From positions 1-47,572 of the forward strand of contig JALQYK010000026.1 of assembly GCA_023254115.1 (NCBI GenBank): a DNA stretch of 47,572 bases, written 5' to 3'. The stretch comes from Polynucleobacter sp. (GTDB lineage Bacteria > Pseudomonadota > Gammaproteobacteria > Burkholderiales > Burkholderiaceae). Under the pieces are notes generated by a model that was not told the origin of the DNA, searched no databases, and saw nothing but the letters and a program-made list of their open reading frames with translations. Shown piece by piece: positions 26,638-42,648 of the stretch (the first letter of the stretch is position 1; each line of letters begins with the position of its first letter). The position numbers were made by a program, and so were the translations under genes.

Positions 26638-28164
26638 CTAGATATTTTCTAAATTATTTAATAAATATTGAGCGTGTTGCTCTATCTTTTTTTGCTCAGC
26701 AACATCAATTTTGTTCAGATTAGCGGTCATTAATCGAGTTCTTGGATTTTTTTCCAACTCGGTTTTGTGTTTGATTAAAAAATTCCAATATAAGTTGGTC
26801 ATTGGGCACGCATTATCGCCATATCGCTCACTTGGCTTATATGTACAAGCATCACAATAATTGCTCATGCGCTTAATGTAGGCTCCACTTGCTATGTATG
26901 GTTTGCTAGTAAACCTGGGTCCATTTGCAAACAATGCCATCCCTGAAGTATTTGGCAACTCAACCCACTCAATCGCATCAACATACACAGCTAAGTACCA
27001 ATCGCAGACATCTTTGGGTAGTATTTCAGCCAATAAGGCAAAGTTACCGGTAACCATTAAACGTTGTATGTGGTGCGCATAACCAAACTTCATTGTTTGA
27101 TAAATTGCATCTTGCATACATGCCATTTGAGTTTGACCGCTCCAATACCATCTCGGCAGATTTCTTTGATGATCATAAAAATTAGCTTTTGCCATTTTTG
27201 GCATATCTAAGTAATACATGCCTCTGACAAACTCTCGCCATCCAAGTATTTGACGAACAAATCCTTCTACCGCATTAATTGAGATGTTTTTTTGTTTCCA
27301 TACTTTAATGGCTGCATCTACTACTTCTTTTGGATCAATTAACTTCAAATTCAACGATGCAGACAATATCGAATGCCAACCAAATGGTGTATTGGTCCAC
27401 ATAGCATCCTGATACTGCCCAAATGATGGCAAGCGATGCTCCATGAAATGCTCCATAGCTTTTAATGCTTGATCTCTCGTGACGGGCCAGCCAAAGTTTT
27501 CAAGCTGTCCAGGATGATTGCTATACCGTTCTTTAACTTCAGCAATCACTTCTTTGGTTACGTCATCTGGTTCAAACCATAATGGATCAATGATTAAGCC
27601 TGGGCCTTTTTTTGAATATGCCCCTCGATTTTGATCATCAAAATTCCACTGACCACCATCTGGTTCTCCATCCGCCTGCATCATGACTTGATGTTTCTTA
27701 CGCATGTAGCGATAGAAATATTCAAGCCTCAATTCTTTTTTATCACCTGCCCACTTTTTAAATTCATCAATCTGACAATAAAAATGATTGTCTTGCCTCA
27801 AATCTAGATGAATGTTTAATTCTTGTGCCAGAGCCTTTAAATCAGATTTGAGCCGCAACTCGCCGGGCTCAACGCAAATTAAATGAGTGAAGTGATTGTT
27901 TTGTATATGTTGCTTTAACTCAGCAACAATTGATTGTTTTGATTTAGTTATGTAAGTGAGATGGTATTTCTTACTCTTTAAGTCGTTGGCAAAGTGCCTC
28001 ATTGCTGACAAAAATAATGCAATCTTTGCCTGGTGCGACCACACATAATTTGCCTCACACACAGACTCAATCATGATGACATGATCATTTTCTATGTTGA
28101 AATTATTAAAGGCCGAACTATCGGCCTTTAATTGATCTCCCAAAACTAATACAAGCTTTTTCAA
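26638..28164 (-). CDS. FeS-BCP / PhrB-like cryptochrome-photolyase family protein (probable (6-4) photolyase)
   Basis: MKKLVLVLGDQLKADSSAF; Cys pattern VCDWYL ... YCDACTYKPSERYGDNACPMTNLYW consistent with four [4Fe-4S] ligands; TTG start 4 nt after the MerR stop. Confidence 0.92.
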   Translation of the reverse strand: MKKLVLVLGDQLKADSSAFNNFNIENDHVIMIESVCEANYVWSHQAKIALFLSAMRHFANDLKSKKYHLTYITKSKQSIVAELKQHIQNNHFTHLICVEPGELRLKSDLKALAQELNIHLDLRQDNHFYCQIDEFKKWAGDKKELRLEYFYRYMRKKHQVMMQADGEPDGGQWNFDDQNRGAYSKKGPGLIIDPLWFEPDDVTKEVIAEVKERYSNHPGQLENFGWPVTRDQALKAMEHFMEHRLPSFGQYQDAMWTNTPFGWHSILSASLNLKLIDPKEVVDAAIKVWKQKNISINAVEGFVRQILGWREFVRGMYYLDMPKMAKANFYDHQRNLPRWYWSGQTQMACMQDAIYQTMKFGYAHHIQRLMVTGNFALLAEILPKDVCDWYLAVYVDAIEWVELPNTSGMALFANGPRFTSKPYIASGAYIKRMSNYCDACTYKPSERYGDNACPMTNLYWNFLIKHKTELEKNPRTRLMTANLNKIDVAEQKKIEQHAQYLLNNLENI

Positions 28165-28168
28165 CTCG

Positions 28169-29131
28169 TTAGATATCCGAACGCTTTGATCGCCAATCTT
28201 TTACATTAACTGATATGTCATTTAATGCATTAATTACTTTAATTCCTTCTGGAGCACGTTTACGCAAGGCCTGATTTTCACCACCAACCCACAACTCAAT
28301 ACCTGGTGCCAGTTTTGACTTAAGCTCATTTAAACCATCCACCACCTGATTTTGGTTCATTTGTGATGAAAATGACAAAGCAATCACATCAGCTTTTTGT
28401 GCGCGTGCTGCTTGAGCGATTTCTAGAATTGGTGTTTGCGTTCCCAATGAAACACATACACATCCCTCCAGTGCCATTAGAGCTTCAGCCATTAATAAAC
28501 CCAAGCTATGATGTTCTTGTGGGAATGTCGTCAATAAAATCCTTGGTCTAGCTAGATCTTCACTCTGACCAGTATGACCACGCGGCACTGAATTAATTGC
28601 TGTTCTTAATAGATGTTTGATTTGTTCAGTAAACAGATGCTCTTCATGGATCTCTAATTTGCCGTCCGCCCAGTAATCTCCTATATTTTTAATTAGTGGC
28701 GAGACTACTTCAATGACAAAACGATCTAAGCCGATTTTCATGAGGGTAGTCGACAAGGCTAGACGTAAAGCTTCAGTTTGATGTGACCTTAGCAAATCCA
28801 AATAACGGTCCATTTCTTCTTGAGAAATGACCATACCCACACTTTGAGCAGGCTCCGCTTGCAACGACTTGGCGCTTAATTCTTTTAAAGCTTCTGTTGG
28901 TAAAGGAACAACTCGCCCGGGACGATGACCCAAATCCAATAAGCGCTTTAAAAGACGTAATTTTTCTATTTGATCGGCAGGATAAACACGATCATCATTG
29001 CTATCCCTAAGTGGGTTAGGGAAGCCATAACGCCTTTCCCAAACCCGCAGGGTATCTTTGGCTATACCAGTGTCGCGCTCTACAGCGGCGATGCTGAGCA
29101 TGTCTGGCAAATTGGTAAATCTAACATTCAT
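28169..29131 (-). CDS. MerR-family regulator with C-terminal cobalamin-binding domain (CarH/LitR-like photoreceptor)
   Basis: N-terminal MerR helix MLSIAAVERDTGIAKDTLRVWERRYGFP; W-ADGKLEIHE-EH (Wx9EH); EHHSLG (ExHxxG) B12 motif; ATG at 29131. Confidence 0.93.
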   Translation of the reverse strand: MNVRFTNLPDMLSIAAVERDTGIAKDTLRVWERRYGFPNPLRDSNDDRVYPADQIEKLRLLKRLLDLGHRPGRVVPLPTEALKELSAKSLQAEPAQSVGMVISQEEMDRYLDLLRSHQTEALRLALSTTLMKIGLDRFVIEVVSPLIKNIGDYWADGKLEIHEEHLFTEQIKHLLRTAINSVPRGHTGQSEDLARPRILLTTFPQEHHSLGLLMAEALMALEGCVCVSLGTQTPILEIAQAARAQKADVIALSFSSQMNQNQVVDGLNELKSKLAPGIELWVGGENQALRKRAPEGIKVINALNDISVNVKDWRSKRSDI

Positions 29132-29191
29132 ATGTGAATACTCACGATTAGCCGCCAGGTTAATACCTGGATCGACAAGCAAATTCTACAC

Positions 29192-29202
29192 TGTCCTAGA
29201 CA
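29192..29202. promoter_or_regulatory. Operator-like box A (TGTCCTAGACA) in the regulator promoter
   Basis: Imperfect palindrome TGTC-CTA-GACA; shares GTCCTAGACA exactly with box B. Confidence 0.6.
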
Positions 29203-29254
29203 TTATTTGCATTTTTTTTATTTTTTATGTAATATCAACTCATATATGTTTTTC

Positions 29255-29284
29255 GTCCTAGACAAAAACCACTCTTGTCTAAGG
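29255..29284. promoter_or_regulatory. Operator-like box B plus inverted arm (GTCCTAGACAA-N9-TTGTCTAAGG)
   Basis: TAGACAA (29259-29265) and TTGTCTA (29275-29281) form a 7-bp perfect inverted repeat; the downstream arm could be a -35 with AATAAT (29300-29305) as -10, spacer 19. Confidence 0.6.
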
Positions 29285-29327: not shown

Positions 29328-29954
29328 ATGTTGGTCGATTTTAAAAAAAGACCGTTTATCCCGCAACAGGCAACAGACCTGGGGAATATCTTTTACAAAA
29401 TCAATCTTATCGTATTGATTTTAATAGGTTTAATGTGGTTTTCTTGGCCTAAGGAGGCTCAAGCCATGAGTTGCCCAGCATCACTTTCTTTCACCTTCCC
29501 ACGGCTGCAGGACGAAGCCCCCCAAAATCTGTGTCAATACCAAGGAAAAGTGATCCTGGTCGTTAATACAGCAAGTTACTGTGGATTTACTGGTCAGTAC
29601 GACGGACTTGAAAAGCTATTTGCACAATACAAAGATAAAGGTTTTGTGGTGCTAGGTTTTCCATCGAATGATTTTGGCAAGCAAGAGCCAGGGTCGAATA
29701 AAGAAATTGCCGAATTTTGTCACAACACCTATGGGGTGAAATTCCCAATGTTTGCAAAAACATCTGTTAGTGGCAACGACGCAAACCCCCTATTCAAATT
29801 ATTAATTGAAAAAACAAACACTAAGCCACGCTGGAATTTTTATAAGTACTTAATAGATCGTCAAGGCAATGTAGTTGAGGCATACAGCAGCATGACCTCA
29901 CCTAGCAGCAAAACAATGACTGCTCAAATCGAAAAGTTACTTCAGGAAAAATAA
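29328..29954 (+). CDS. Glutathione peroxidase family protein with N-terminal signal/TM segment
   Basis: VILVVNTASYCGFTGQYDGLEKLFAQYKDKGFVVLGFPSNDFGKQEPGSNKEIAEFC; N-terminal hydrophobic segment ending AQA. Confidence 0.94.
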   Translation: MLVDFKKRPFIPQQATDLGNIFYKINLIVLILIGLMWFSWPKEAQAMSCPASLSFTFPRLQDEAPQNLCQYQGKVILVVNTASYCGFTGQYDGLEKLFAQYKDKGFVVLGFPSNDFGKQEPGSNKEIAEFCHNTYGVKFPMFAKTSVSGNDANPLFKLLIEKTNTKPRWNFYKYLIDRQGNVVEAYSSMTSPSSKTMTAQIEKLLQEK

Positions 29955-29956
29955 TC

Positions 29957-30760
29957 ATGAATGCACCAGAGAACATTTTTCTACCGGACGTTCAGGCAAG
30001 TCTTGATGAACGCAACATTGTTATTCAAAAAGTGGGGATTAAATCGGTACGTCATCCAGTCTTGCTCCAAACGCAGACTGGCTCACAACCCAGTGTTGCA
30101 ATGATTGATATGACTGTGATGTTGCCAAGCAATGTTAAAGGCACTCATATGTCTAGATTTTTGGAAGTTCTACAAAATCACCATGAACCCCTTAACCTTG
30201 TCAGTATCAAAACAATGATGGTCAACATGCTCAATAGACTTGAGGCGGAAGAAGGCCATTTAGATTTGAGAATGCCACTTTTCTTAAAAAAAGTGGCCCC
30301 GGTGTCTGGTGTTGAAAGTCTTTTAGATTACGACCTTCATATCAAAGCTGCTTTTAAAAATGGTGGCTTGAAATACACTTTACAAGTGCAAGTACCAGTG
30401 ACCAGTTTGTGCCCTTGCTCTAAGAAGATTTCTGAATATGGCGCACATAATCAGCGCTCACACATAGTGATAGCTGCGGAATTAACTGAGGATATGGCAG
30501 CAGAAGACTTAATCAAAATTGCTGAACAAGCGGCTTCTTGCGAGTTATGGGGATTATTAAAGCGCCCAGATGAGAAATATGTCACAGAGCGTGCATACGA
30601 CAATCCTAAATTTGTTGAAGATTTAGTCAGAGATATAGCAGTGGCTTTAGAACAAGAACGCAAAGTCATTGCATACGAAGTGTCATCAGAAAATTTTGAA
30701 TCCATACACAACCACTCAGCATATGCGTGGCTAAGTAACGACAAGAGAAATAGACACTAA
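29957..30760 (+). CDS. folE2: GTP cyclohydrolase IB (FolE2)
   Basis: VTSLCPCSKKISEYGAHNQRSHI signature. Confidence 0.96.
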   Translation: MNAPENIFLPDVQASLDERNIVIQKVGIKSVRHPVLLQTQTGSQPSVAMIDMTVMLPSNVKGTHMSRFLEVLQNHHEPLNLVSIKTMMVNMLNRLEAEEGHLDLRMPLFLKKVAPVSGVESLLDYDLHIKAAFKNGGLKYTLQVQVPVTSLCPCSKKISEYGAHNQRSHIVIAAELTEDMAAEDLIKIAEQAASCELWGLLKRPDEKYVTERAYDNPKFVEDLVRDIAVALEQERKVIAYEVSSENFESIHNHSAYAWLSNDKRNRH

Positions 30761-30871: not shown

Positions 30872-32203
30872 ATGAAAATCGCCGTTATAGGGGCAGGTAT
30901 ATCTGGTTTAGGGTGCGCATACGCACTCAGCAAATTACCAAATGTTGAATTAACAATATACGAGGGTGGCGACCATATTGGCGGCCACAGTAACACCATA
31001 GACCTAACCCTAGATACTGGTATTGGTCCCGTTACTCATGGTATTGATACAGGATTTCTAGTTTTTAACCAAAGAACATATCCAAGGCTTCTAAGACTCT
31101 TTCATGAAATTGATGCCCCAATAGCTAAATCAGATATGTCATTCTCAGTATCTATCCCCAACAAAGATGGGCAATACTTGGAATGGGCGGGCACAGACTT
31201 AAATTCATTATTCGCACAAAGAGAAAATCTATTTAATTATGGTTTTCTATTAATGGTGAAAGACATCATTAAATTTAATAGCTTGTGCACAAAGCTAGCT
31301 TTAGATAAAAAACTAGATCAACTCAATTTAACAGTTGGCGAGTTCATTAAAAAACACGGGTTCAGCCAACAATTTCAAGATTGGTATTTTTTACCGATGA
31401 TAGGTGCCATCTGGTCTTGCCCTGTTGAGCAAATGCTGGAATTTCCCATCTCCACCATGATTCGCTTTTGTCACAATCATGGTTTGATAAAAATTACTGA
31501 CAGACCTCAATGGCTCACTGTATCAGGCGGATCTAGAGAATACGTCAAAAGAATTTGTGAAAAAATAAAACACTCTGGCGCCAATTTTAAAAGACTAAAA
31601 GTCGACTCAATTAAAAGACTTGATAACCAAGTCCAAGTTTTCACCAACCAGTCATCTGAGCTTTATGACCATGTTGTGATGGCAGCTCACAGCGATGAGA
31701 CATTACAAATGCTTGCGGACCCAAGCAACGACGAACATTCAATCCTTAGCTCGATTAACTACCAAAAAAATCGCGCCGTATTACATACAGATGCATCTGT
31801 TTTACCAAGTGAAAAAAGATGCTGGGCTGCTTGGAATTACACCACTGATGCATCAACAAAGACAGAAAATCAACGCGTTTGCGTCAACTATTTGATTAAT
31901 AAACTACAACCGTTACCCGAGGCTTGGAACAATCATCCAATAATTGTTAGCCTTAACCCAGTGATTGAACCCTCAGCAGAAACCATCAGAGCTGATATTG
32001 AATATGCTCACCCCATATTCGACCAAGCAGCAATCAATGCACAAGCCAATCTACCCCTCATTCAAGGCTCGAAAAATACTTGGTTTTGTGGGGCTTGGAC
32101 AGGTTACGGTTTTCATGAAGATGGTTTACGCTCAGGGGAATTAGTGGCTGAAGCAATCCACGAACTACTCCACTTGCATCACCACACATCGGCACTTGCA
32201 TGA
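30872..32203 (+). CDS. FAD-dependent amine-oxidase-like oxidoreductase
   Basis: MKIAVIGAGISGLGCAYALSKLPNVELTIYEGGDHIGGHSNTI; C-terminal GAWTGYGFHEDGLRSGELVAEAI. Confidence 0.92.
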   Translation: MKIAVIGAGISGLGCAYALSKLPNVELTIYEGGDHIGGHSNTIDLTLDTGIGPVTHGIDTGFLVFNQRTYPRLLRLFHEIDAPIAKSDMSFSVSIPNKDGQYLEWAGTDLNSLFAQRENLFNYGFLLMVKDIIKFNSLCTKLALDKKLDQLNLTVGEFIKKHGFSQQFQDWYFLPMIGAIWSCPVEQMLEFPISTMIRFCHNHGLIKITDRPQWLTVSGGSREYVKRICEKIKHSGANFKRLKVDSIKRLDNQVQVFTNQSSELYDHVVMAAHSDETLQMLADPSNDEHSILSSINYQKNRAVLHTDASVLPSEKRCWAAWNYTTDASTKTENQRVCVNYLINKLQPLPEAWNNHPIIVSLNPVIEPSAETIRADIEYAHPIFDQAAINAQANLPLIQGSKNTWFCGAWTGYGFHEDGLRSGELVAEAIHELLHLHHHTSALA

Positions 32204-32973
32204 GCATTGCAAAGATTTGCTTCGGCCAGGTTAGACACGCACGCTTAAAGCCAGCCAAGAACTCTTTTGCCTATTCAGTTTTTACTTTGCGTATCCCCAT
32301 GCGTAAAAGAATGCATAGCCCTGCTGGCATAAATCAATTTGGTTTAGGCGACAATAAATTTTCATGGCTATCTTTTTACGACAAAGATCATGGTGATGGC
32401 AGAGATAATTCTCTTGACTGGGCAACTAACTTAGTTAAGAGCCAAGGTATTACAGATATTGATGGTGAAGTTTGGTTACAAACATTCCCACGAGTACTAG
32501 GTTATGTTTTTAACCCAGTTAGCTTTTGGTTTTTTGAAAATGTAACAGGTCAGACTAAAGCTATTTTGGCAGAGGTGAATAATACTTTTGGTGAAAGACA
32601 TTGTTACTTACTAGCCCACCCAGATACTAAAAATATTGAGTGGGGAGAAAGCCATGTATCCAATAAAGTTTTTCATGTTTCACCCTTTTGCGAAGTAACA
32701 GGTCACTACGTTTTTAGGTTTTTTTCAAAAAATTCTCCCAAGCAGCACGTTGCACGTATTGAGTATCACGATCAAGGCCCATTACTCATTACCAGTGTTA
32801 ATGGTGTTGAGCACGATATCAGTATTAAAAATTTAGTCTGGTCTGCCATCAGATACCCCGCAATGAGTATTGGTGTTATTGCACGAATACATTGGCAAGC
32901 CTTACGTTTATGGCTAAAAGGGGTGCAATTTCATTCCAAGCCAGAACCACCATCTGTGGAAGTTAGCAAATGA
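32200..32973 (+). CDS. DUF1365 family protein
   Basis: VRHARLKPAKNSFAYSVFTLRIPM; LLTYPRVLGYVFNPVSFWF-like LQTFPRVLGYVFNPVSFWF; EVNNTFGERHCYLL. Confidence 0.92.
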   Translation: MSIAKICFGQVRHARLKPAKNSFAYSVFTLRIPMRKRMHSPAGINQFGLGDNKFSWLSFYDKDHGDGRDNSLDWATNLVKSQGITDIDGEVWLQTFPRVLGYVFNPVSFWFFENVTGQTKAILAEVNNTFGERHCYLLAHPDTKNIEWGESHVSNKVFHVSPFCEVTGHYVFRFFSKNSPKQHVARIEYHDQGPLLITSVNGVEHDISIKNLVWSAIRYPAMSIGVIARIHWQALRLWLKGVQFHSKPEPPSVEVSK

Positions 32974-34205
32974 GCTCAAATATTCATGCTGTTTCAAATG
33001 TATCTGCAACGTTCCCCTGGTACGCAAGAACCATTTTGTCTTTATTGGAAAAAATTCAAGTTGGGCAATTAACTCTTGCTAGCCCTGAGGGTGAAAAATT
33101 TATATTTAGAGGCGCACAGTCAGGAATTGAAGCAAACATCCAAATTCATGATTGGTCAGTTTGCAAGGCCTGCTTAAAATCTGGCGATATTGGCTTAGCA
33201 GAAACATATATTGATGGTCTTTGGGACTCAACCGATGTTCAATCACTACTGAGATTATTTCTTATCAATCGCCAAGTAATTGAAAAAGCAATTTACGGCA
33301 GTTGGTGGGGAAGGTTGGGCTACCGCATTAAACATTGGCTCAACAAGAATTCAAAAGCCGGTAGCAAAAAAAATATTCATGCTCACTACGATATTGGCAA
33401 TGCCTTTTATTCCTTGTGGTTAGACCCCAGCATGACTTATTCCAGCGCATGCTTTAAGAATCAAGATACATCACTGATTGAAGCGCAAGAAGCAAAATAC
33501 CAACGCATCATTAATTCAATCAATGTTAAGCCTGGCGACAATATTCTTGAAGTAGGTTGTGGCTGGGGTGGATTGATGGAAGCCGCATCTAAGCAAGGTC
33601 TCCACATTGACTGCCTAACCATTTCTAAAGAACAGGCAACTTACGCTCAAGACCGTGCAAAACGCATCAAATCATGCGATTCTGGCGAAGTAAACATTCT
33701 GATTCAAGACTACCGTGACCATGAAAAGCAATATGATGGCATTGCCTCGGTTGAAATGTTTGAGGCAGTTGGCGAAAAATATTGGGCCACTTATTTTGAG
33801 ATGATTCAAAGATGTCTCAAGCCAGGAAAAAGGGCTTGTATACAAACTATTGTTATTGCAGATAATCTATTCGATAAATATCGTAGGAGCTCAGACTTTA
33901 TTCAACAATATGTTTTCCCAGGCGGCATGCTACCCTCAATTACAAAATTCAAAGAGGCCGCACAAAGCAAAGGATTGATAGTTGAAGATGTTTACCAGTT
34001 TGGGCAGGATTATCAGAAAACACTTTGTTTATGGCATCAAAAATTCAATCATCACTTGCAAGAAATAAAACAACAAGGTTTTGATGAAAAATTTATACGT
34101 CTTTGGAACTTGTATTTGATGTATTGCGCAGCTGGATTTGCAGAAAAAAGTACTGATGTAGTTCAGTTCACCTTATCTAAGCCAGCAAACAATGCCATTA
34201 AATAA
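32970..34205 (+). CDS. Cyclopropane-fatty-acyl-phospholipid synthase family methyltransferase
   Basis: HAHYDIGNAFYSLWLDPSMTYSSACF; ILEVGCGWGGLMEAAS; SVEMFEAVGEKYW; QYVFPGGMLPS. Confidence 0.94.
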   Translation: MSSNIHAVSNVSATFPWYARTILSLLEKIQVGQLTLASPEGEKFIFRGAQSGIEANIQIHDWSVCKACLKSGDIGLAETYIDGLWDSTDVQSLLRLFLINRQVIEKAIYGSWWGRLGYRIKHWLNKNSKAGSKKNIHAHYDIGNAFYSLWLDPSMTYSSACFKNQDTSLIEAQEAKYQRIINSINVKPGDNILEVGCGWGGLMEAASKQGLHIDCLTISKEQATYAQDRAKRIKSCDSGEVNILIQDYRDHEKQYDGIASVEMFEAVGEKYWATYFEMIQRCLKPGKRACIQTIVIADNLFDKYRRSSDFIQQYVFPGGMLPSITKFKEAAQSKGLIVEDVYQFGQDYQKTLCLWHQKFNHHLQEIKQQGFDEKFIRLWNLYLMYCAAGFAEKSTDVVQFTLSKPANNAIK

Positions 34206-34971
34206 GCCCGTTATTAGCTTTTATAACAAGCGCATTTGGGTCATCGGCGCATCAAGTGGTATTGGCCTTGCTTGTACAAAAGACTTCTTAAGTCACGGCG
34301 CAAAGGTCGCCGTCAGTGCTCGCAGAGCAGATCTCATACAAGAAATTAATGATGCCTACCCAGAGGATCAAGTTTTAGCTTTAGCATTGGACGCGCGAAA
34401 TTACTCTGAGCTAACTAATGCCTATAAAACTATTAAAGCTAAATGGGGCGGCTTGGATTTAATGGTTTTTGTTTCTGGCACCTATGAACCCATGCGCGCT
34501 GATAATTTTGATTTATCTAAAGCAAAAAACATTATTGACCTAAATGTTTTGGGACCTATGTCAGCATGTGAGGTGGTGTTCCCTGACTTCATAAACAATC
34601 AATCAGGCGGGATTGCTATAGTCAGCAGCGTAGCTGGGTACAGTGGGTTACCAAAGGCACTTGCCTATGGCCCAAGTAAAGCAGCCATGATTAATTTCTG
34701 CGAAACGTTGTATTACGACTTAAAACCAAAAGGTATATCCGTCTACATGATCAACCCAGGTTTTGTCGCCACTGATGCAACAGCCAATAATGATTTTCAT
34801 ATGCCGGCTTTAATCACACCAGAAAAAGCCTCTGAATATATTCTTGATGGAATACAAGCCGGTAAATTTGATATTCATTTCCCAAAAAGGTTTTCGCTAT
34901 TCCTTAAATTTTTGAGAATTTTGCCGTACTCAATTTATTTTTATTTGTTAAAAAAATTCATAAAAATATAA
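34192..34971 (+). CDS. Short-chain dehydrogenase/reductase
   Basis: VIGASSGIGLACTKDF; Ser...YGPSKAA (catalytic Y-x3-K); INPGFVATD. Confidence 0.94.
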   Translation: MPLNKPVISFYNKRIWVIGASSGIGLACTKDFLSHGAKVAVSARRADLIQEINDAYPEDQVLALALDARNYSELTNAYKTIKAKWGGLDLMVFVSGTYEPMRADNFDLSKAKNIIDLNVLGPMSACEVVFPDFINNQSGGIAIVSSVAGYSGLPKALAYGPSKAAMINFCETLYYDLKPKGISVYMINPGFVATDATANNDFHMPALITPEKASEYILDGIQAGKFDIHFPKRFSLFLKFLRILPYSIYFYLLKKFIKI

Positions 34972-35400
34972 ATGACCAGCTTGCGTATCCAAAATGTAAT
35001 TGCCCAATTTGAGTCACTAAGCCCTCAATCCGTTAATCAATTGACCAATCTATACGCTAGTGATGCCGCCTTCAAAGATCCATTCAATGAGGTTAGGGGG
35101 CATAACGCAATTAAACACATATTTCTACATATGTTTAATCAAGTTAATAACCCAAGATTTGTCATTAAGAGCGTTTTAGAAAATGATCAACATGCATCAC
35201 TCACTTGGGAGTTTGAGTTTCAATTTAAGTCTTCGCCCAATCAGTCAGAACTCATTAAAGGTTGCACTTGGTTCACCTTTAATCAGCAAGACTTAATTAT
35301 TGAGCACAGAGATTACTGGGATGCAGCAGAAGAACTCTATGAAAAACTGCCCCTAATTGGGGGGTTGATGAGGTGGCTAAAAAAAAGGGCCAAGCATTAA
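34972..35400 (+). CDS. NTF2-like (nuclear transport factor 2 / SnoaL) protein
   Basis: LTNLYASDAAFKDPFNEVRGHNAIKHIFLHMF ... IEHRDYWDAAEELYEKLP. Confidence 0.9.
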   Translation: MTSLRIQNVIAQFESLSPQSVNQLTNLYASDAAFKDPFNEVRGHNAIKHIFLHMFNQVNNPRFVIKSVLENDQHASLTWEFEFQFKSSPNQSELIKGCTWFTFNQQDLIIEHRDYWDAAEELYEKLPLIGGLMRWLKKRAKH

Positions 35401-38483: not shown

Positions 38484-38816
38484 TTGACTATGTTATATAA
38501 ATTTCAATGCAAAAAATCTGCTGATGTATTAATGCTAGAAGATCTCACATCAAGAATCTTCGAGATTCTTGATAGACCACTTGAAGCAAGAGGTGTTTTT
38601 CTGATTGAACAGCTGCCCGTTGCCATTGAAAAGCTCGAGGCAGCTATTGCAGAAGACGAAAAACTCAGAAAAGAAATGCTTGAGGAAAAATCAGAAAACA
38701 AAGAGGGCTCACCCCACAAGGTTAAACATGATCGATTGGGGCAAAGAGCATTCCCATTCATACAATTACTCAAAGCAGCCTTAGCTAATCAAGAAATGGT
38801 TATTTGGGGCGTCTAG
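38484..38816 (+). CDS. DUF1840 family protein
   Basis: [29 protein letters not shown] ... [14 protein letters not shown]. Confidence 0.88.
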
Positions 38817-41496
38817 CAAAGTCATTTTGCTGATCCTCGCCAATGCGACCCACATCAAAATATTGTGCATGCGGACTTGCCAAATAAAAGCCGCTGACAC
38901 TTGATGCTGGCGTCATAGCCATTGACTCGGTCAAAGCCATATCAATCTCACCCGCACTCAAGCACTCAAACATTTCTTTTTTGACCAAATGATCTGGGCA
39001 AGCTGGATAACCTGGCGCAGGCCTAATGCCTAGATATTTTTCCTGAATCAACTCGTCATTGGTCAAAGACTCCGAAGCAACGTAGCCCCAAAGCTCTGTT
39101 CGTACTCGTTGATGCATTTTTTCAGCAAAAGCTTCAGCCAATCTATCAGCTAACGCTTTAAGCATGATGGCGCTGTAGTCGTCATGCTTAGACTCAAATT
39201 CTTTTAATTTTTTCTCAATTGCATGACCCGCAGTTACCGCAAACATACCTACATAGTCAGCCACACCAGAATCTTTTGGTGCAACAAAGTCTGCCAAACA
39301 ACGATTTGGTTTTTTTACACCATCAACCACAGGGCGATCTGCTTGCTGCCTGTAGTTCTTCCAAGTCAGCAAAACCTTTTGGCGTGACTCATCAGAATAA
39401 ATTTCAATATCATCACCAACACTATTGGCAGGATATAAGCCTACAACTGCATGCGCTTGTAGCCAACGTCCCTGAATAATTTTTTGAAGCATAGCTTGAG
39501 CGTCCGCATACACTTTTTTGGCAGACTCACCAACCACTTCATCATCTAATATTTGTGGAAACTTTCCAGCCAAGTCCCATGTTTGGAAGAACGGCGTCCA
39601 GTCAATGCAAGTTGCGATTTCTGCCAAATCATAATTCTTAAAAACACGCCGACCGATAAATTTTGGTTTAACAACAAGCTCTTTTGACCAATCAATTTTT
39701 TCTTTATTAGCACGCGCTTCTTCGATGCTAATTATTGGCAACTGCTTTTTATTGGCATGTTGATCACGTATACGCTCATACTCAACACTTAAATCATCAA
39801 TGAATTTTTTAGCACCATCGTCTGATAACAAGCCTGAGGCAACAGATACGGCTCTAGATGCATCTGGCACATAGACAACCGGACCTTCATAATGTGGTGC
39901 AATTTTTACTGCGGTATGCACACGTGAAGTTGTCGCTCCACCAATCATTAGAGGCATTTTTTTGCTTCTAAAGTAATCATCTCGTTGCATCTCTTGAGCA
40001 ACGTAAGTCATTTCTTCGAGAGAAGGTGTGATTAAGCCAGATAGGCCAATCATGTCAGCCTTTTCTTCTTTAGCTTTACTCAAAATTTCATTACATGGAA
40101 CCATGACACCCATGTTCACAACGTCAAAATTGTTACATTGCAATACAACCGTAACGATGTTTTTACCGATGTCGTGAACATCACCTTTCACTGTTGCCAT
40201 AATAATTTTTCCGCGTGAACGCACATCACCACCACGCTGCAAAATTTGACGCTTTTCTTCTTCAATGTATGGCACCAAATGTGCAACAGCTTGCTTCATT
40301 ACACGCGCACTCTTAACCACCTGTGGCAAAAACATCTTTCCCTCACCGAACAGATCGCCAACCACATTCATGCCATCCATCAATGGACCTTCAATTACCT
40401 CAATAGGTCGACCACCGGCGTTGGCGATTTCCAAGCGCATCTCTTCGGTGTCTTCAACAATGTGAGATGTGATTCCATGAACTAAAGCATGCGTCAAGCG
40501 CTCCCGCACCGAAGCCTCTCTCCAAGCTAATGTTTCTTCAGCTTTAGCGCCACCACCCTTGTATTCATCGGCGATTTCTAAGAGTCTTTCAGTGGGGGTC
40601 TTGCCATCTTTTTCTTTAAAGCGATTCAAGACCACATCTTCAACGCGCTCTTTTAACTTCTCATCTAAATCAGCATACACACCCAACTGCCCTGCATTAA
40701 CGATACCCATATCTAAACCAGCACGTATCGCGTAGTAAAGGAATACTGTATGTATGGCTTCACGGACCACATCATTACCGCGGAAAGAAAAGCTGACGTT
40801 TGAAACCCCACCGCTGACTTTGGCGCCAGGTAGATTTTGTTTAATCCAAGCCGTAGCATTAATAAAATCATTGGCATAGTTATCATGCTCTTCAATGCCT
40901 GTGGCTATAGCAAAAATATTTGGATCAAAAATTATGTCTTCAGCCGGGAAACCAAGCTCATTAACTAAGATGTTGTAACTGCGCTGGCAAATTTCGATTT
41001 TGCGCTCGTATGTATCAGCCTGACCCTTTTCGTCAAACGCCATCACAACAGTTGCTGCACCATAACGTCGTATTAATTTGGCTTGTTGTCTAAATGGCTC
41101 CTCTCCCTCCTTCATAGAGATAGAGTTAACAATCGCCTTACCCTGTACGCATTGCAAACCAGCCTCAATCACTGACCATTTTGATGAATCAATCATCACT
41201 GGTACTCTTGAAATATCCGGCTCAGATGCAATCAAATTTAAAAAACGTACCATCGCAGCTTTTGAGTCCAACATGGCTTCATCCATGTTGATGTCAATAA
41301 CTTGCGCGCCATTCTCAACTTGTTGACGCGCCACTGACAAAGCTTCGTCATATTGACCATTCAAGATCATTCTTGCAAATGCCTTGGAACCTGTCACATT
41401 AGTACGCTCACCAACGTTAACAAAGCCAACGTGAGCACTGATGTTGCATGGTTCAAGACCTGATAAACGCATCGGCGGAATCTTGACTGTACTCAT
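38800..41496 (-). CDS. metH: Methionine synthase, pterin / cobalamin / activation domains (split MetH, C-terminal part)
   Basis: [29 protein letters not shown]12 DxHxxG motif; activation domain [19 protein letters not shown]; start MSTVKIPPM at 41496. Confidence 0.96.
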
Positions 41497-42533
41497 CACA
41501 CAGACTCCTTGTATGCATCCCAACGACGCGCCGTTCTTTTAGATACAAGCTCAGCAATAGCCTTAATATGGGCAGGGGTTGTACCACAGCATCCACCCAC
41601 TAAATTTACTAAACCATCTTTTGAAAATTCGTCTAAAAGTCTTGATGTCATTTCTGGCGTCTCATCAAATCCTGTGTCGCTCATTGGATTTGGCAAGCCA
41701 GCATTTGGATAACAAGAAACAGCAACATCACAAACCTTAGCCAACTCAGCAATATATGGTCGCATCAATGTGGCGCCCAAAGCACAGTTCAGGCCAAATG
41801 TGAGGGGCTTAGCATGACGCAAACTATTCCAAAAAGCCTCTACCGTCTGACCAGACAAGATTCTGCCGGAGGCATCAGTCACAGTTCCAGAAATCATGAT
41901 TGGCAATCTTACGCCTGACTCTTCAAAGAACTCATCTATAGCAAATAGGGCAGCTTTTGCATTGAGTGTGTCAAAAATTGTCTCAACCAAGAGCACATCT
42001 GCACCACCCTCATACAAAGCTTCAACTTGCTCTTTGTACGCCACTCTTAATTGTTCAAAGGTAACGTTTCTAGCACCAGGATCATTTACATCAGGCGAAA
42101 TGCTGGCAGTTTTTGGGGTGGGTCCAACAGCACCAGCAACAAAGCGTGGTTTTTCCGGCGTCGAAAACTCATCACAAGCTTGTCTTGCCAGTTTTGCGGC
42201 CGCAATATTCATTTCTCTAGCAAGCTCAGGCATTTTGTAATCATCTTGTGCAACTGTTGTTGCGCCAAACGTGTTGGTTTCAATTAAATCTGCACCTGCC
42301 GCTAAATATTGCCTGTGTATATCAAGAATGATTTCTGGGTGAGTCAAGTTGAGTAATTCGTTGTTGCCCTTAAGGTCAATTGGATGATTCTCAAAACGTT
42401 TGGATTCTGGCAAGCCACGGTAGTCTTGCTCTGATAATTTACGTTGCTGAATCATGGTACCCATAGCACCATCCAAGATCAAAATTCGATCTTTTAATAA
42501 TTGAGGCAAAACAGCGCCACGCGTATAAAGCAT
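41496..42533 (-). CDS. metH: Methionine synthase homocysteine-binding domain (split MetH, N-terminal part)
   Basis: [56 protein letters not shown] stop overlaps the downstream ATG. Confidence 0.95.
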
Positions 42534-42648
42534 AGGTAAAAACTCTTGATTTAGCAGCAAATGATTGCGGCAAATGGATTAAACCTATATTTTATCGGTA
42601 TTACGCATATTTATCTGATTACATTAACTTTTTTATTAAGGGGTCATC

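Follow-up and report, generated by a model that had tools for sequence, protein, structure and literature searches.

In CarH and the class I LitR proteins, the Wx9EH motif makes the contact to the adenosyl group of adenosylcobalamin (AdoCbl), and in TtCarH it is His132 that coordinates cobalt from the upper side once photolysis has produced the light state. To our knowledge, nearly all structures of B12 photoreceptors are of one thermophile protein, and the mechanism by which AdoCbl photolysis leads to the release of DNA, including the role of His132, is disputed. TtCarH (a class I LitR; PDB 5C8D-5C8F and 3WHP) binds an operator of three tandem 11-bp direct repeats, nAnnTnnACAn (PMC8156234). 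In one study TtCarH H132A was mostly tetrameric in the light, although the same paper cites an earlier, opposite report that this variant does disassemble (PMC10442372). CtMerR of Chloracidobacterium thermophilum (PDB 8JBS/8JBT) has Arg at position 132 yet converts from tetramer to monomer in the light through a water-mediated light state, and the SignatureFinder light signature comprises the motifs GxxW, EH, GxxH and GxxxP (PMC11796333). The class II LitR proteins PplR1-3 and PmlR1-2 of Pseudomonas are dark repressors that have no working B12 domain and depend on a short LOV protein; the PplR1/PmlR2 operator is T(G/A)TACA-N12-TGTA(C/T)A, and the pmlR1 cluster (phrB, an FAD oxidoreductase, a CFA/UfaM-like gene, an SDR gene and folE) does not require B12 (PMC9758184). 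In CarA of Myxococcus xanthus, which does not depend on B12, the Trp of Wx9EH is missing (PMC9304148).

The litR gene described here lies in a 47,572-bp window, the whole stretch of Polynucleobacter DNA that was analysed, from a host assembly of 1.62 Mb that is 93% complete (Table 1). Between 28169 and 29131 the minus-strand frame is open and the plus-strand frame is interrupted by many stop codons; the ATG at 29131 (stop codon at 28169-28171) is kept in 14 of 14 aligned loci. A longer frame reaching a TTG at 29182 is a mechanical ORF call, which we rejected on the grounds that a conserved -10-like TGTAGAAT lies directly upstream and that the ATG is conserved. The Pfam models MerR_1, B12-binding_2 and B12-binding all match the protein above their cut-offs, so that LitR combines a MerR domain containing WERRY with both B12 domains, as in the CarH/LitR family. 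The best NCBIfam model was CarH, with a score of 108 that lies below its cut-off of 400, and a PDB sequence search at E<=0.001 gave seven matches, five of them to TtCarH and the others to the CarA DNA-binding domain and CtMerR. An AlphaFold model that took 87 relatives as input (mean pLDDT 91.1, pTM 0.70) gave full-length TtCarH as the top Foldseek matches (E about 1e-15), with a TMt of up to 0.83 for the cobalamin domain. Full-length superposition was loose (rmsd 14-20 Å), as would be expected if the DNA-binding domain of LitR is placed differently. LitR is like TtCarH in its three domains, its Wx9EH, its lower-ligand His, its equivalent of Gly192 and its predicted fold, at about 24-29% identity. 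It shares with CtMerR the MerR-B12 architecture and the lack of His at position 132, although the two are only 18% identical over the structural alignment, and with CarA the family and the DNA-binding domain. Within Polynucleobacter, orthologues reach 97% identity.

Table 1. Features of the litR locus (window positions; domains in residues of LitR)
Feature	Position	Strand	Remarks
phrB-like photolyase-related protein	26638..28164	-	Pfam DPRP; 4 bp downstream of litR
litR/carH-like gene	28169..29131	-	320 aa; MerR, B12-binding_2 and B12-binding domains
MerR DNA-binding domain	about residues 12-74
Four-helix B12-binding_2 domain	about residues 108-176
Rossmann B12-binding domain	about residues 197-285
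Lower-ligand motif	28499..28516	-	E206-H-H208-S-L-G211; H208 = TtCarH H177
Wx9EH	28637..28672	-	Trp154, Glu164, His165 = TtCarH W131, E141, H142
-10-like TGTAGAAT	29183..29190	-	inferred litR promoter; conserved
Operator B (predicted)	29191..29203		ATGTCTAGGACAG as read on the minus strand; directly upstream of -10-like TGTAGAAT
AT-rich box GATATTAC	29229..29236		between operators; inferred shared -10 position; AATATT in most orthologues
Operator A (predicted)	29253..29265		TTGTCTAGGACGA as read on the minus strand; 62 bp from operator B
Third half-site TTGTCTAAGG	29275..29284	+	inverted repeat with operator A
Glutathione peroxidase (gpx)	29328..29954	+	first gene of divergent unit
folE2	29957..30760	+	type I GTP cyclohydrolase
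FAD-dependent amine-oxidase-like protein	30872..32203	+
DUF1365 protein	32200..32973	+
Cyclopropane-fatty-acid-synthase-like (CFA) methyltransferase	32970..34205	+
Short-chain dehydrogenase (SDR)	34192..34971	+
SnoaL-like protein	34972..35400	+

Both motifs that the preliminary description had read from the translation are present: its string YW-ADGKLEIHE-EH corresponds to W154-x9-E164-H165 on the minus strand, and its FPQEHHSLG contains the lower-ligand ExHxxG motif as E206-x-H208-x-x-G211. The longer lower-face motif D/ExHx2G-x41-SxT/V-x22-27-GG can also be followed through LitR, both spacings (41 and 27) being exact, and reads E206-x-H208-x2-G211, x41, S253-x-S255, x27 and GG, with Ser255 in place of Thr/Val. 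By chance, a protein of this composition would be expected to hold 0.007 copies of Wx9EH and 0.03 of ExHxxG. An alignment of 87 sequences, which excluded three relatives that lack the B12 site (L114, L118 and L123), had 13 invariant columns: R29, W31, R34, Y50, G68, W154, E164, H165, E206, H208, G211, G230 and P234. Over all 93 relatives, W154 is retained in 92, E164 in 93, H165 in 91 and H208 in 90, residue counts which indicate strong selection on the B12 site together with occasional loss. The motifs and their conservation support an intact AdoCbl pocket in LitR. The preliminary description had also held that some relatives lack a functional B12 site, and this was borne out by L114, L118, L123, L192, L202 and L207, which have lost B12-ligating residues, in losses that occurred more than once on the tree. 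Because such homologues exist, retention of the site in Polynucleobacter LitR is informative. Some of the site-less homologues (L118 and L123) retain the upstream palindrome described below.

An enrichment of 8-mers upstream of 78 non-Polynucleobacter homologues, for which no motif was given in advance, ranked CTAGGACA (32 occurrences vs 0.05 expected) and CCTAGACA (24 vs 0.09) at the top. The 13-bp palindrome derived from them, TTGTCYWRGACAA, is present in the 250 bp upstream, at no more than two mismatches, of 65 of these 78 genes and of all 15 Polynucleobacter genes, and in 0.5% of 2300 background pieces of 250 bp. Within 300 bp upstream it occurs in 80 of the 93 relatives, compared with 0-10 for consensuses that had been scrambled; in a phylogenetically uneven set such counts are not independent events. 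The palindromes are usually paired: 46 pairs have a spacing of 61-65 bp, and in Polynucleobacter the spacing is exactly 62 in each of the 13 pairs. Exact TGTCTARG sites were found in 14 of 14 Polynucleobacter loci with litR (one to three per locus) vs 1 of 19 without it. Single TGTCTARG-like matches are no commoner than chance in the window, and the predicted operators are convincing only because of phylogenetic conservation and pairing. On the question of a TtCarH-type nAnnTnnACAn direct repeat, it is the 13-bp palindrome that dominates upstream of litR relatives; at Polynucleobacter litR we predict a pair of palindromes, unlike the three direct repeats of TtCarH. As written, TTGTCYWRGACAA differs from both the CarH repeats and the PplR1 sites, although an ACA/TGT core is common to them, and measured against the open-access literature its identification as a paired candidate operator appears to be new. 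Operator A and the third half-site together read TAGACAA-N9-TTGTCTA, which is perfect in the window. Across the genome, GACAA-N9-TTGTCTA has no exact match outside the litR-gpx intergenic region, and in a genome-wide regulon prediction its one-mismatch matches were no commoner than those of a reversed control pattern.

Three elements of the litR-gpx intergenic region are kept in all 14 Polynucleobacter loci, and TGTA(G/A)AAT or a close variant stands at the position of the -10-like TGTAGAAT in each. Between paired palindromes there is a -10-like box that can be read on both strands (TATACTA). Site A provides a -35-like TAGNCA 17 bp before this box, and on the other strand TTGAC adjoins site B, an arrangement that suggests two overlapping antiparallel promoters. 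In Polynucleobacter the AT-rich box GATATTAC sits where other families have the nearly self-complementary shared -10 (TATACTA). The fixed spacing of 61-65 bp may be explained by overlapping divergent promoters that share one -10; looping, which we considered as a necessary cause of the spacing, is not needed, since a shared -10 fixes the same distance. A sigma-70 consensus scanner did not call the putative promoters of the litR-gpx region. The 5' leader of litR contains a hairpin (29135-29182, minus strand; GUCGAU-CCAGG...CCUGG-CGGC) that keeps its position in 14 loci and shows some compensatory changes (folding z-score -2.1).

The gene order around litR, which is probably co-transcribed with phrB, differs from that of TtCarH, which adjoins carotenoid genes; Polynucleobacter litR is linked instead to phrB, gpx, folE2 and the amine-oxidase/DUF1365/CFA genes. 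Among 78 loci with enough flanking sequence, some of it incomplete, we found near litR an amine oxidase in 59, DUF1365 in 58, CFA in 62, folE2 in 35, gpx in 33 and phrB in 25. No match to PF00494 (phytoene/squalene synthase) was detected in the host genome, on which ground we rejected a carotenoid output for LitR. Close litR orthologues (at least 70% identity) are found in 15 of 186 Polynucleobacter genomes; co-occurrence of DUF1365 with litR was rejected as a signal, as DUF1365 is present in 182 of the 186. In 19 of 20 loci without litR, rfaE2 is followed directly by gpx and the amine oxidase, with no litR, phrB or folE2 between. Polynucleobacter thus has gpx-amine oxidase-DUF1365-CFA-SDR as a core cluster of the genus, but in the litR-less loci (L161-L180) the same neighbours have no litR, phrB or folE2 between them.

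The best reading of LitR, judged from these sequence features, is a B12 photorepressor of the CarH/LitR type. We think it likely that LitR is an AdoCbl-loaded dark repressor that sits on the two palindromes and keeps both divergent promoters off until light releases it from DNA. In the dark, AdoCbl would be bound via Trp154, Glu164, His165 and His208, and the loaded protein would occupy the two TTGTCYWRGACAA operators, which lie between litR and gpx at a distance of 62 bp, and hold both promoters off. Green or blue light would break the cobalt-carbon bond, the adenosyl group would leave, the LitR assembly would change and the DNA would be released, so that both litR-phrB and the divergent unit gpx-folE2-amine oxidase-DUF1365-CFA-SDR-SnoaL would be induced. 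In the open-access literature we found no biochemical or expression data on close LitR relatives or on Burkholderiales LitR proteins of the B12 type.

The preliminary description had called the photoreceptor signature of LitR full, which holds for the two motifs and fails for several other TtCarH residues. TtCarH His132 is replaced by Ala155, and the partners of the Arg176-Asp201 dimer salt bridge are replaced by His207 and Gln232. Of the SignatureFinder motifs, LitR has three (GxxW, EH and GxxxP), whereas CtMerR has four of four; the missing GxxH has Gln205 for Gly174, a position at which 27 of the 93 relatives have Gly. His is found at position 132 in none of the 93 relatives (Ala in 35, Met in 18, Val in 11, Leu in 9, and others) and in 3 of 28 further, more distant proteobacterial homologues; the lack of His132 in relatives is not itself a new observation. 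As none of His132, Arg176/Asp201 and Gly174 is kept, the oligomer chemistry of TtCarH is not simply transferable to LitR. Because Ala155 stands in place of His132, LitR cannot reach the bis-His light state of TtCarH by way of that residue; more likely the light state is ligated by water or hydroxide, as in CtMerR, or by another residue. The H132A result (PMC10442372) implies that the dark tetramer and light monomer of TtCarH may not hold for LitR. That same result, together with the absence of His from position 132 in all 93 relatives, lends some weight to an alternative in which LitR reports the level or form of cobalamin, not light, and photolysis is a side effect that does not release DNA when His132 is lacking. 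We regard this as unlikely. CtMerR monomerises in the light with Arg at this position (PMC11796333), so that the lack of His132 weakens the bis-His mechanism and not light sensing; moreover, AdoCbl is intrinsically photolabile, and the genes linked to litR include those for a photolyase-related protein, a glutathione peroxidase and FolE2 and are not genes of B12 metabolism.

The gene content of the host suggests that AdoCbl should be available to a LitR photorepressor, through B12 import and AdoCbl synthesis. The genome encodes a PduO-type cobalamin adenosyltransferase (no CobA/BtuR was found in it), methylmalonyl-CoA mutase and MeaB, and has a cobalamin riboswitch upstream of a gene for a TonB-dependent receptor. 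MetH is present in the window at 38800-42560 (minus strand) in two overlapping adjacent frames, which specify a homocysteine S-methyltransferase of 354 aa and a protein of 907 aa with the pterin, B12 and activation domains. The cluster around litR is similar to the phrB/oxidoreductase/CFA/SDR/folE cluster of class II LitR proteins, members of the same MerR/LitR family, and the cluster around Pseudomonas pmlR1 does not require B12 (PMC9758184). LitR might by analogy bind B12 only vestigially, with a separate flavin protein (LOV or BLUF) sensing light and removing the repressor. This is very unlikely, as both B12 domains of LitR are intact and all ligand residues are retained, in contrast to the degenerate domain of class II; a LOV motif, as in the short LOV partner of class II, is absent from the two PAS matches of the genome (93% complete); and the PplR1/PmlR2 operator differs from TTGTCYWRGACAA (PMC9758184). 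Least probable is a bis-His CarH in which His162, at the position of TtCarH Ala139, replaces His132: this position holds His, Phe or Tyr in 87 of the 93 relatives, but Phe/Tyr (58, vs 29 with His) could not supply the same ligand, and Ala155 removes the known one.

Beyond the proposed Polynucleobacter photorepressor, we tentatively propose, with somewhat less than even confidence, that a large, mostly Burkholderiales group of proteobacterial proteins act as B12 photorepressors that do without a bis-His state. Their mode of DNA binding would differ from that of CarH: symmetric units would sit on a pair of 13-bp palindromes, separated by about six helical turns, that flank two overlapping antiparallel promoters with a shared, near-self-complementary -10, so that one B12-loaded oligomer would silence two divergent photoprotection operons simultaneously. 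Natural homologues with Ala, Met, Val and other residues at position 132 in a pocket that is otherwise invariant offer a ready-made test of His132, and the predicted operator can be used directly as a probe in binding assays and to predict the regulon. LitR proteins of this kind could also be employed as mesophilic switches that control DNA binding by green light. Polynucleobacter is a very abundant freshwater genus, and the locus suggests that scavenged B12 lets one of its sub-clades place photolyase and antioxidant genes under light control.

In a tree of 117 proteins, Polynucleobacter LitR forms one fully supported group within Burkholderiales homologues; the deeper branches are weak. One Polynucleobacter genome (L039; G145:C59) encodes, besides a divergent LitR (35%), a second homologue about 0.3 kb away from it that consists of the B12 domain only and is possibly PpaA/AerR-like. 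On a plasmid of Comamonas endophytica (L159), a LitR homologue lies between genes for chemotaxis proteins, outside the usual cluster; about 3 kb separates it from a BLUF-domain gene.
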